Origin: Kosmotoga olearia TBF 19.5.1
GTDB taxonomy: Bacteria > Thermotogota > Thermotogae > Petrotogales > Kosmotogaceae
Assembly: GCF_000023325.1 (NCBI RefSeq)
Contig: NC_012785.1
Coordinates: forward strand, 1,860,001 to 1,924,000
Direction: 5' to 3'
Length of the DNA stretch: 64,000 bases
Shown here: positions 24,039 through 35,454 of the stretch, in pieces
How positions within the stretch are numbered: the first letter of the stretch is position 1
How the letters are laid out: each line of letters opens with the position of its first letter
Notes under the pieces: model-generated
Database searches by the model: none
Told to the model about the DNA's origin: nothing
Seen by the model: the letters and a program-made list of their open reading frames with translations, nothing else
Made by a program: the position numbers and the translations under genes

Positions 24039-24373
24039 CTGGAGAGTGAGGCGGGTGGTCGCGGCGTTAGCCGAGGAAAGTCCGGACTCCTTGGGCGAGG
24101 ATGCTGGGTAACACCCAGGGGGAGTGATCCCCGGTAAGGGCCATAGAGAAGAAGACCGCCGTTAAGGCAAGGGTGGAACGGTGGGGTAAGAGCCCACCAG
24201 GTCCGGGGTGACCCGGATGCTTGGCAACCCCCATCCGGAGCAAGTCCAAGCAGAGAGGGTTTGAGGTCGCCCACCGAATCCCTCTCGGGTAGGACGCTTG
24301 AGGGGTACGGTAACGTACCTCCCAGATAGATGACCACCTAAAACAGAATCCGGCTTACGGCCTCACTCTCCAG
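24039..24373 (+). ncRNA. rnpB: RNase P RNA, type A
   Basis: This is the catalytic RNA that removes 5' leaders from pre-tRNAs. The universally conserved blocks are present: GAGGAAAGTCCGGACTCC near 24074, CATAGAGAAGAAGACC near 24141, AAGGGTGGAACGGTGGGGTA near 24168, and ACAGAATCCGGCTTACGG near 24343. The ends pair over 13 bp (24039-24051 with 24361-24373) to form P1, followed by TTTTATTTT. It closely resembles the Thermotoga RNA as I remember it. Confidence 0.97.
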
Positions 24374-26136: not shown

Positions 26137-27475
26137 GAGTAAAAGATCGATAACCGAGAGTCGAGAACCGGTAGCCGCTGCGCGGCCCTCCGAATCCCTT
26201 CGGGATTGTTACGGTGTGCCCGGCATGACATACAACTATAGGGTGAAAGTCCCGAATGCGGGGAGCGGAATAAGCATTAGCTGAGGGCAAGGGTGTCACT
26301 GGTAACGGTGAATCTGAAGGAAGCCTAAGGCAAAATCCGGAACTGAACGAAAGTGAACCAGTGTTGGCCGGTAGAGTGGGTAACCTTGCCGAGAATGGGT
26401 AAGCCCGAGCTCCAACTCTACAGGTTTGGATGGCAGGATTCGGAAGAAAGCTGTATGTCTTACCCGGGGAAGTCCTCACTCGTCCCAAAATGGGTAAGCC
26501 GGAACAAGGGGAGACCCAAGGACTGGTGAAGCGGAGGAGGATGGCAGACGAACCCGTAGTAGTGTTGAACCTCTCTGAAAGGAGAAGGGACTATCGCCTT
26601 GAGCGATGGGGGTAACAGGAACCGAAAGGGCCTGTTACTTGCGAAGGGGGGAAGGATTGAGGAAATGGCACAAAGGGAAGCGAGTATAACAGGAGCTCGT
26701 AACGGAGGCTGAAATGCCGACGGTGGTCTGAAATGGCTGGGGCAGGCAAGTAATCCATTATAGGGTTGGGCATATTCCTCGAAAGGGGTAGAAAACCGAT
26801 GCCTGTGTGGAAGAAGAAACCGATTCTGTTATATGCGACTTATTCTGAAGGCCATGCGGAGGTAATATGATGGTACTTAACCACCGTCGGAGAATCCGAT
26901 ACTCAATCCATGAGCCGTGTACGTTGGCCCGTACGCACGGTTCTGTGAGAGGACGGGGGGATTCCCCCCTCCTACTCGATAACCACTGCGTGGTTGAAAA
27001 AAGCTGTCATTCTGGAAATGTTTAATCGCAGAATCTGCTGCACAGACTGTCATTTTGGAAATGTCTTATCCAGAATCTTGTTTTCTCTTAAGAACGTTAT
27101 CCTGAATCGAGTTCAGGATAACGGGTGGGGGTATTCAGAATGACGGGTGGGGGATTCATGATAACGGGTTAGGGTGTTTGGTGAATAATAAAGTAGGGGC
27201 ACAGCATGCTGTATAAAATCCGTGAGTCCGAGACCCGAGAATCCGAGAAATCAAGAACAGTAGATCCTGAATCGAGTTCAGGATGACATTCATACGGTCA
27301 ATTTGCCAGCTCTATCAACTGCGTAGCAGTTCGCAACAACCACGAAGTGGTTCGAGACAACTCCGCAGGAGTTCGTAACAACCGCTTGCGGTTCGTGTCG
27401 CTCCATCAACTGACAGCGTAGCAAGCCTCGGCTGCGTAGCAGCTACCGGATCTCGGATCTCGATTCTCGTGTTTA
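26137..27475. repeat. Repeat island A: mini-hairpin arrays, dispersed repeats and inverted termini
   Basis: The island between the YgiQ and OsmC genes has no protein gene. It begins with CCGAGAGTCGAGAACCGGTAGC-like sequence (26153-26174) and ends with an inverted copy (27443-27470). Hairpins of 13-15 nt occur at 26174-26186, 26193-26207 and, after the intron, 26981-26995. Inverse-orientation copies follow with a 21-nt period at 27317-27331, 27338-27352, 27359-27373 and 27380-27393. Between them lie two GTCATTCTGG-type repeats (27006, 27049) and two ATCCTGAA/TTCAGGAT palindromes (27099-27119, 27264-27284). Confidence 0.8.
26214..26980 (+). mobile_element. ORF-less group II intron
   Basis: The element starts GTGTGCCCGGCATG and includes AGGGTGAAAGTCCCGAA, both typical of bacterial group II introns. 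Domain V is 26912-26943 (GAGCC...GGTTC), with the AGC catalytic triad. Domain VI follows and ends CCTACTCGAT, with the branch-point A at 26974, seven bases from the 3' end. The flanking repeat gives the boundaries: removing 26214-26980 restores a GTTACG-AACCAC junction seen elsewhere in the arrays. CGTAAC at 26698-26703 is complementary to the last six exon bases, GTTACG, and is a candidate EBS1. No reverse transcriptase is encoded, so mobility would need a protein from elsewhere. Confidence 0.88.
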
Positions 27476-33688: not shown

Positions 33689-34613
33689 ACCACTTTATTT
33701 TAAAGAGCGTAAAGCCAAATATCACCGCGGCAACCGCGGAAATTCCCATTGTTATGGCGAAAGCATAATCGTTACCACTGAGCGGTAGTTTTATGTTCAT
33801 TCCCCACATGGATGCTGTGAGCATTGGTATCTGGAGGACCAGAGTGACTATGGTCAACACCTTCATTACAACATTCAGGTTATTCGATATGACTGAAGCG
33901 AAGGCATCCATCATTCCGCTGAGGATGTCGCTATAAATCTTCGCCATTTCTATGGCCTGACGGTTGTCTATGATTATGTCTTCAAAAAGGTCTTCATCAT
34001 CTTCGTAGAGTGTGAGAATACTCGCCATTTTGAGTTTTTCAAACATGAGCTCGTTGGAACGCAGTGAGGTTGTGAAATATACAAGGGACTTTTCGAGGTT
34101 CAACATAGCTACAAGTTCCTTATTTCTTGTAGAACGGTGAAGTTCTTTCTCGATGTCGTTAGATCTCTTTCTAATCTCTTTCAAATATCTGAGGTAGTAG
34201 ATAACAGCGACCTCAAATATTCTCAACAGGAATCTGTTCCGTTTTTTGGTAGAGAAATCCTTTATTTTGTTCTGGAAGAAATCTTTGAAAATCTCGTTGT
34301 CATTCAGACAAATAGTTACAAAAGCGGTAGGCGTGATGGCTACGCCGATCGGAAGTGTTTTGTATGGAACCTCTGGGTCTTTCTCATCGTAATAGGGAAC
34401 TTTTGCAATAACATATATTATATCTTCGTCCTGTTCGAATCTCGCTCTCTCTTCGGGGTCTAACGCGTCCCAAACAAAATCTTCGTCTATGCCGAATTTT
34501 GAGAGCACTTCGATGTCCGAAGAATCAGGTGAAACCACATAAACCCACGATTTTTCACGAAACTCGCTGAGTTCTTTCAATTCTCTTTTTTCGGTTATGA
34601 AATATCTAATCAT
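33681..34613 (-). CDS. corA: CorA-family magnesium/divalent cation transporter
   Basis: The 310-residue protein has the CorA plan: a cytosolic N-terminal alpha/beta domain, a long helix, and two C-terminal membrane helices (about 250-270 and 283-303). The GMN selectivity motif is at about 262 (SMWGMNIKLP). CorA forms pentameric channels that admit Mg2+ and close when internal Mg2+ is high. The ATG has AGGAG at 9 nt. A leader ORF and foldable RNA lie between its promoter and start, suggesting translational control. Confidence 0.93.
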   Translation of the reverse strand: MIRYFITEKRELKELSEFREKSWVYVVSPDSSDIEVLSKFGIDEDFVWDALDPEERARFEQDEDIIYVIAKVPYYDEKDPEVPYKTLPIGVAITPTAFVTICLNDNEIFKDFFQNKIKDFSTKKRNRFLLRIFEVAVIYYLRYLKEIRKRSNDIEKELHRSTRNKELVAMLNLEKSLVYFTTSLRSNELMFEKLKMASILTLYEDDEDLFEDIIIDNRQAIEMAKIYSDILSGMMDAFASVISNNLNVVMKVLTIVTLVLQIPMLTASMWGMNIKLPLSGNDYAFAITMGISAVAAVIFGFTLFKIKWFK

Positions 34614-34701
34614 AATTTTCCTCTCCTTTGCCTCGTTTTGTTAGGATTGTTGACTACGATGCGAGGCCTGAGGAGGGTGAGCTCTTGCCCTCACTTCCAG
34701 T
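34614..34701 (-). promoter_or_regulatory. Foldable RNA between the leader ORF and corA
   Basis: Three pairings compete. GTGAG/CTCAC and GAGGG/CCCTC (both just after the leader stop) exclude each other. GCCTCG/CGAGGC closes a loop just ahead of the corA ribosome-binding site. CCTCCT (34671-34676) can pair with the AGGAG of that site (34623-34627). Ribosome position on the leader ORF could decide which forms. Confidence 0.4.
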
Positions 34702-34740
34702 TCATGGCGGTAAATCACTCTCACTACTGTATAATTCCAT
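34702..34740 (-). CDS. Probable 12-residue leader peptide of corA
   Basis: A 13-codon frame encodes MELYSSESDLPP and starts with ATG behind AAAAGGAGGTGAAAAT, one of the strongest ribosome-binding sites in the window. It lies about 20 nt after the predicted transcription start and 88 nt before corA. The peptide is acidic and ends in two prolines before the stop. In enterobacteria, acidic/proline leader peptides such as MgtL regulate Mg2+ transporter expression by stalling or destabilising ribosomes at low Mg2+; the resemblance is in type, not in sequence. Confidence 0.55.
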   Translation of the reverse strand: MELYSSESDLPP

Positions 34741-34767
34741 ATTTTCACCTCCTTTTCTCTTCTCGAA

Positions 34768-34776
34768 ATTATACCA
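34768..34776 (-). promoter_or_regulatory. Extended -10 promoter of the corA transcript
   Basis: The minus strand reads TGGTATAAT, with TATAAT at 34768-34773, just past the stop of the upstream HAD gene. It places the start near 34761, so the leader ORF is inside the transcript. Confidence 0.6.
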
Positions 34777-34791
34777 TGAGTTTTCGAATTA

Positions 34792-35454
34792 TTAATCCTT
34801 AAGTAGGCTTCGTAACTCAAAAAGATTTGACAAACGGAGAGTTTCTGAATGCCTGTCGTGGGGTTCGGCCTTTCTGTCGATAAGGAACGCCTTAATACCA
34901 GCATTTAACGCGCCGACGATGTCAACTTCAGGATTATCTCCGACAAACACGACATCCGTTTTCTCCGATCTCATTTTCTTCAGCGCGAACTCAAAAATTT
35001 TTCTGGATGGTTTATATGCTTGCGCTGTTTCAGAAGTGATCAAAAAATGGTGTGGAATGGAATTTTTCTCAACGGCCTTGACGGCAAAGACATTGTCCGC
35101 GTTTGTCAGTATGCATATGGTGTAACTTTCAAATAACTCTTTGAGCACCTCAACGTCATGATATGCTTTGAACTGTCCAAAAGAAGTGAACATGAAATTC
35201 AGATAATATTGTACCTCGCGAGCAAGACGAAATCTCTTTTTTATTTTACTGAGTAACTGCTCATAGTAAGCTGTCTCCGGCTTGAACTCCTTCAGATGGT
35301 ATCCTGAGAAGAACTCGTGGTAGAACTTTTTAAAAGCATTTTCAATTTCAAGAACATCTAGAGAGGTTTCCTGAGCTATCGTTAATGAGATGGGGTAAAA
35401 GAGCCTTTCGCTGTCTATAAGTGTTCCAAAGAGGTCAAATATGATACCTTTCAT
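34792..35454 (-). CDS. HAD-superfamily hydrolase (haloacid dehalogenase-like)
   Basis: A 220-residue HAD protein with a helical cap (about 15-90). Motif I reads FDLFGTLID: the second Asp of the phosphatase DxD signature is Phe, as in haloacid-dehalogenase-type members. Motif II is LTNAD (near 117), motif III KPSRKIF (near 147), and motif IV VGDNPEVDIVGA (near 171). The absence of the second Asp makes a simple phosphatase role less sure. AGGTGAT precedes the ATG. The gene is divergent from the ATP-grasp gene. Confidence 0.85.
   Translation of the reverse strand: MKGIIFDLFGTLIDSERLFYPISLTIAQETSLDVLEIENAFKKFYHEFFSGYHLKEFKPETAYYEQLLSKIKKRFRLAREVQYYLNFMFTSFGQFKAYHDVEVLKELFESYTICILTNADNVFAVKAVEKNSIPHHFLITSETAQAYKPSRKIFEFALKKMRSEKTDVVFVGDNPEVDIVGALNAGIKAFLIDRKAEPHDRHSETLRLSNLFELRSLLKD

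Follow-up and report, generated by a model that had tools for sequence, protein, structure and literature searches.

A conserved short ORF precedes corA in Kosmotoga olearia and other Thermotogota and may gate corA translation in response to Mg2+

Introduction

Can a bacterium outside the gamma-proteobacteria use the translation of a short leader to set the level of a Mg2+ transporter? The question is raised by a locus of Kosmotoga olearia TBF 19.5.1 in which a 12-codon ORF lies upstream of corA. In Salmonella and Escherichia coli, ribosomes that drop off the mgtL leader at its EPDP codons in low Mg2+ switch mgtA on (PMC11282234, PMC6460261), and translation of corL is inversely related to corA expression (PMC11552253). 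For a third leader, mgtQ, PMC8092293 reports that the acidic codons matter and the Pro codon does not. RNA elements are also in play, with the M-box (ykoK) riboswitch regulating Mg2+ transporter genes, corA included (PMC4072509), and an enteric corA RNA motif described in gamma-proteobacteria only (PMC6429828). A search of open PubMed Central papers found no account of such leaders in Thermotogota or Bacillota, or elsewhere outside the gamma-proteobacteria.

A preliminary description of the K. olearia locus, made from its sequence, had proposed that ribosome behavior on the leader reports Mg2+ and opens or closes the corA start through alternative pairings of the intervening RNA. We have examined this proposal in the window, that is, the whole 64,000-nucleotide stretch of DNA analyzed here, and in related genomes.

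Results

A Short ORF with Its Own Shine-Dalgarno Sequence Lies Upstream of corA

Every element named in the preliminary description is present where it had been placed, on the minus strand (Table 1). The downstream gene encodes a protein whose GMN motif corresponds to residues 271-273, and the solved structures among relatives of this protein are CorA channels. The extended -10 element is the sole promoter consensus match within 34560-34900, and its position predicts a transcription start a short distance before the leader ORF. A short ORF that has a strong Shine-Dalgarno (SD) sequence of its own and is carried on a Mg2+ transporter mRNA is one feature expected of an MgtL-type leader, and it is found here.

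Table 1. Features of the leader region and corA in the window
Feature	Position	Strand	Details
Extended -10 promoter element, TGGTATAAT	34776-34768	-	TTAATA-16-TATAAT, 10/12, preceded by TG
Leader SD, AGGAGG	34753-34748	-	7-nt spacer to ATG at 34740
Leader ORF, ATGGAATTATACAGTAGTGAGAGTGATTTACCGCCATGA	34740-34702	-	12 codons; peptide MELYSSESDLPP, then stop
Small hairpin, GTGAG...CTCAC	34694-34690/34681-34677	-	K. olearia only
GAGGG/CCCTC pairing	34692-34688/34677-34673	-	Overlaps GTGAG/CTCAC
Anti-SD, CCTCCT	34676-34671	-	Predicted pairing with corA SD
Spacer, leader stop to corA ATG		-	88 nt
corA SD, AGGAG	34627-34623	-	Predicted sequestered
corA	34613-33681	-	ATG 34613; CorA-family Mg2+ channel, 310 aa; PF01544, E 4.4e-54

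The Leader Peptide Is Conserved in Thermotogota and Nearly Always Precedes corA

CorA homologues were gathered from relatives and from 103 Thermotogota genomes. Among Thermotogota genomes, 41 encode this CorA subfamily, and 32 of these have an SD-led short ORF upstream of corA, which bears out the expectation that such an ORF would be kept in related corA leaders. The conserved leaders are acidic and Ser-rich, and end at or beside Pro-Pro-stop (e.g., MDYFSCSEDPLSRPP and MSSESYTSSYSDEPLPRPP, each followed directly by the stop). Family and genus labels (Kosmotogaceae, Mesotoga, Thermosipho) are our reading of the sequences. The leader is present in 14 of 15 Kosmotogaceae-like genomes (family f1; MELYSSEGDLPP, MEIYSSEGNLPP, MELYSSESEPPL, MELYSSESEPPP, and MDIYSSESAMPN), in all eight genomes of f2 (MDYFSCSEDPLSRPP and MDSSSSSKDVVSLPP), in all nine of f9 (MSSESYTSSYSDEPLPRPP and MSSDSFSRYSDEPLSRPP), and in one of three in f4 (MESASNTEIPLRPP). 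It was found in none of the six f10 genomes with this corA, and is also missing in g5 and g20 despite the presence of the gene; the leader is therefore not essential. One genome counted as leaderless, L024, is ambiguous, with MPTRPP-stop in a frame that lacks a good start. No such leader was found before a distant paralogous CorA type of the same phylum.

The signals around the ORF are conserved as well. The leader SD reads GGAGGTG among relatives, and 28-29 of the 32 genomes have a TGnTATAAT-type element before the leader, which argues against a transcription start downstream of position 34702. SD-led ORFs of 8-25 aa that end in Pro-Pro-stop and contain at least two acidic residues precede corA in 23 of 40 Thermotogota cases, whereas dinucleotide shuffles yield 0.03 on average, the genomes being related and not independent. 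Changes at codon positions 1/2/3 number 5/5/32 in f2 and 12/12/48 in f9, and their concentration at third positions argues that the leader peptide is under selection. The peptide-start motif of Kosmotogaceae-like leaders, ATGGANNTNTAYAGYAGYGARRG, has 14 matches in the 103 Thermotogota genomes, every one of them just upstream of corA. The pattern [DE]PLxRPP-stop has 19, of which 16 are at corA and the other three, all in one genome, look like chance. When both patterns are combined, 30 of 33 matches across the phylum precede corA. As the preliminary description had claimed, a translated regulatory leader ORF appears to be tied to this gene, a link supported by the conserved short ORF and its near-exclusive association with corA.

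Conservation of the peptide would also be expected if it acted in trans, for example by binding CorA. This is most improbable for a hydrophilic peptide of 12-19 residues that is found in cis to corA, the more so as leaders in Bacillales (see below) retain the N-terminal part alone and differ in length.

Pro-Pro-Stop Lies Close to the corA Shine-Dalgarno Sequence in Many Genomes

Two adjacent prolines occur within the last three residues of 31 of the 32 leaders, K. olearia included, as is characteristic of Pro-stop arrest peptides of the TnaC kind. In the Mesotoga-like form, PPL, the last residue is Leu, and the L005 leader ends in PN before the stop. Across leaders, conservation of Pro-Pro near the stop exceeds that of the acidic residues (MDSSSSSKDVVSLPP and MEIYSSEGNLPP are only weakly acidic), a pattern that would also fit a termination-stall sensor.

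The leaders come in two geometries, a short spacer between stop and corA in f2, f4, and f9, as opposed to a 71- to 90-nt spacer containing an anti-SD in f1. In the former, the leader stop and the corA start are 20-30 nt apart, and the corA SD begins 7-15 nt past the leader stop in the 18 genomes concerned. Given the general size of a ribosome footprint, 7-15 nt is within or at the edge of the reach of a ribosome on Pro-Pro-stop. A ribosome stalled at termination could thus block the corA SD, or alter the hairpin where there is one, and the rbfL leader of Staphylococcus aureus, which overlaps the ribosome-binding site of its gene, is a precedent (PMC13009471). Despite the near-universal Pro-Pro and the short distance, we regard such a stall as a rather unlikely basis for control, because the L005 leader departs from the rule, Pro-Pro-stop is not present in the Bacillota leaders described below, and what the phyla have in common is early acidic and proline residues together with a Mg2+ gene.

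The same spacing, seen in most Thermotogota leaders outside the Kosmotogaceae-like group, makes reinitiation plausible, and the leader might merely feed terminating ribosomes to corA, or keep its mRNA open, constitutively and without sensing. However, it is a peptide sequence that is conserved and not a mere ORF, and Kosmotogaceae-like leaders are 71-90 nt away from corA, behind a sequestering hairpin, which makes constitutive coupling improbable as the whole explanation.

The corA Shine-Dalgarno Sequence Is Predicted to Be Sequestered in Kosmotogaceae-Like Leaders

In the predicted minimum free energy structure of the K. olearia leader, the CCTCCT motif pairs with the corA SD, as had been proposed, and the predicted probability that this SD is unpaired is 0.21 at 37 °C and 0.34 at 65 °C. 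Of the Kosmotogaceae-like leaders, 12 were checked for the motif CC[TC]CC, and all have it 19 or 25 nt past the leader stop. Folding of 13 such leaders predicts a paired corA SD in every one (unpaired probability 0-0.30), and it was still mostly paired in the eight of these refolded at 65 °C. In Mesotoga-like genomes, the predicted hairpin extends over the corA start codon too, and that of L008 is far stronger than shuffles (z -4.6). The 97-nt spacer RNA of K. olearia folds slightly better than shuffles (z -1.23), with 20 of 200 at least as good. In a consensus fold, the Pro-Pro codons with which the leader ends pair in addition with the leader SD. The corA SD is predicted, then, to be either sequestered or abutted by the leader stop, depending on the geometry.

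Whether this RNA works as a switch is a different matter. The GTGAG/CTCAC and GAGGG/CCCTC pairings, which the preliminary description had taken to exclude each other, do overlap and are mutually exclusive, but as a switch they were seen in K. olearia alone and not in related genera. When a ribosome was masked at the leader start, at codon 6, or at the stop, the predicted accessibility of the corA SD changed very little. The effect is so small that folding gives no direction of control in f1, and a simple equilibrium switch in Kosmotogaceae-like leaders finds no support, the corA SD staying paired in nearly every ribosome-position state. The original interpretation therefore survives in part: the leader ORF tied to corA stands, while the specific local RNA switch lacks support.

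The stable SD-sequestering hairpin of Mesotoga-like genomes, exemplified by L008, might itself be a direct metal-sensing riboswitch, in which case the ORF would be incidental. This has very little to recommend it, since Rfam, which may lack a model of the enteric corA motif, gave no match to the leader in the window or in 17 loci, and since spacer sequence and structure vary by genus and are missing in the short-spacer families, the peptide alone being common to all.

Mesotoga-like leaders (e.g., L006 and L014) end in CTT TGA, which is a prfB-like +1 frameshift context, and their +1 frame reads DLSRPL[KR]PPS through the anti-SD. In the 12 f1 leaders examined for it, CCTCC lies at a distance of 1 mod 3 from the stop. 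Coding in the +1 frame past the leader stop was considered and rejected; the frame is open through the anti-SD in 12 f1 leaders, with PLxPP in several, but its codon-position statistics are weak (3/2/5 in g4 and 2/3/4 in g3).

Bacillota Also Have corA Leaders of This Design

A comparison set of 80 CorA relatives, of which nearly all come from other phyla, revealed that a restriction to Thermotogota would be too narrow. Among these 80, 26 loci labeled as Bacillales-type by reading the sequences have EPEP/DPDP-like leaders (beginning, for example, LSYSVDPDPSRRGEVN or MSTRKCSEPEPEPRANKEEV), and 11 further loci, ten from Bacillota and one from a Spirochaete, have MDxDP-like leader starts. A strict automatic count yielded 13 EPEP/DPDP-like and seven MDxDP-like leaders, against none in shuffles. 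Bacillales leaders keep the N-terminal part alone, and their length varies. On the CorA tree, EPEP leaders correspond to a single clade; PP leaders require several changes. Homology between Thermotogota and Bacillales leaders was considered and not adopted; the design is the same, but the leaders are too short to prove it.

An alignment of 21 Bacillales leaders shows two masking helices, one over the leader SD and one over the corA SD, whose pairing and covariation scores are not reached by any of 500 shuffles. The anti-SD can instead pair with the codons directly following DPDP; this competing helix is 96% paired, and its covariation score is equaled or exceeded in 12 of 500 shuffles. Judged by eye, the helix masking the leader SD seems to have been rebuilt with other sequence in L041 and L047 (Anoxybacillus and Geobacillus; CGTTTTCGTAT / ATACGAAAACG in Geobacillus). 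A Bacillus-like corA with a leader also occurs in L097, a record titled Pseudomonas sp. ISL-84 that is probably mislabeled.

An M-box, a leader, and corA follow one another in this order in L039 (Bacillales) and L088 (Ruminiclostridium), the M-box and the leader sharing one 5' region of corA. The corA genes of L050 and L078 have an M-box upstream too.

Gene Content and Peptide Composition Point to Mg2+ as a Plausible Signal

As for the M-box in Thermotogota, its covariance model (RF00380) matched none of the 103 genomes, while two control genomes gave matches. In the K. olearia genome, CorA is encoded once and MgtE not at all. A set of 41 relatives that includes K. olearia has full-length MgtE in two of the 24 genomes with this CorA versus 15 of the 17 without it, so that MgtE and this CorA subfamily are nearly mutually exclusive among Thermotogota relatives. 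From this distribution, CorA may be the main Mg2+ importer where it occurs. The leader peptides (SESDLPP in the window, SDEPLPRPP in relatives) are acidic and proline-rich, yet not EPDP, and the lack in K. olearia of the alternating EPDP of MgtL counts against a Mg2+-sensing reading. Ribosomal protein bL31, which according to PMC8092293 counters acidic/proline-type ribosome destabilization in enterics, is present in K. olearia. Because the gene encodes CorA, the peptides are acidic and proline-rich, relatives have the order M-box, leader, and corA, and K. olearia has one CorA and no MgtE, Mg2+ is a plausible signal for the leader.

Discussion

We favor, with a probability of roughly 0.58, a translated leader that acts in cis: its acidic and proline codons would make the progress of ribosomes depend on Mg2+ and gate translation of corA, as MgtL, MgtQ, and CorL do for their genes in enterics. 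Ribosomes would load at the strong leader SD at the 5' end of the corA mRNA and then meet an early acidic, serine, and proline stretch that ends in Pro-Pro beside the stop. With ample Mg2+, they would complete the leader; in low Mg2+, the weak ribosome-nascent chain complex would pause or, as we infer, drop off rather than stall, as for MgtL. Complete and failed translation of the leader would leave the ribosome-binding site of corA accessible to different degrees. That site would be held, in Kosmotogaceae-like genomes, in the hairpin with a CCTCC anti-SD ~20 nt past the leader stop, and in other Thermotogota a ribosome on Pro-Pro-stop would sit against the corA SD, because no more than 20-30 nt separate the stop from the start of corA. 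If the leader behaves like MgtL and CorL, its efficient translation would lower corA expression and failed translation would raise it.

The leader likely works like those of enteric Mg2+ transporters, each of which it resembles in part. As in mgtL, a short ORF with acidic and proline codons is found close to the 5' end of the mRNA for a Mg2+ transporter, but the K. olearia peptide lacks EPDP and ends in Pro-Pro-stop; the likeness seen is one of design. Moreover, mgtL acts on transcription termination, whereas the K. olearia leader would act at the corA SD by hairpin or abutment. Like corL, it is a uORF upstream of corA; however, corL sits in a gamma-proteobacterial three-way-junction RNA, the corA motif (PMC6429828), and works through Rho, and no Rfam model matches the K. 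olearia leader. PMC8092293 describes mgtQ as a very short acidic ORF followed by an anti-RBS hairpin over the RBS of a Mg2+ transporter, with control at the level of translation, which is similar, although mgtQ has eight codons, is gamma-proteobacterial, and is internal to an operon. The M-box shares with the leader a place upstream of corA, both being found before the corA genes of L039 and L088, but its RNA binds Mg2+ directly and it is absent from all Thermotogota genomes searched.

If the favored reading is right, Thermotogota, which lack the M-box, use the Mg2+ dependence of the ribosome to set the level of what is possibly their principal Mg2+ importer, by a logic found again in Bacillota. 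Within the literature searched, translated Mg2+-sensing leaders were previously known from gamma-proteobacteria only. The short, defined peptides and the tractable hosts among Bacillales would lend themselves to testing acidic/proline ribosome destabilization as a general intracellular Mg2+ sensor, and the leaders also bear on how such sensing works in thermophiles. A broader proposal, which we put forward tentatively and with the odds somewhat against it, is that the corA leaders of Thermotogota and Bacillota represent an old cross-phylum class of Mg2+-sensing nascent peptides, with the ribosome as the sensor, that replaces or supplements the M-box and is no enteric specialty. As part of the same proposal, a +1 shift at CTT-TGA in Mesotoga-like leaders might lengthen the peptide (DLSRPL[KR]PPS), carrying translation across the anti-SD and freeing the corA start.

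Elsewhere in the window, two group II intron matches (RF02001 and RF00029) were found on the plus strand at 26296-26458 and 26910-26980, with the RNase P RNA upstream of them at 24043-24373.
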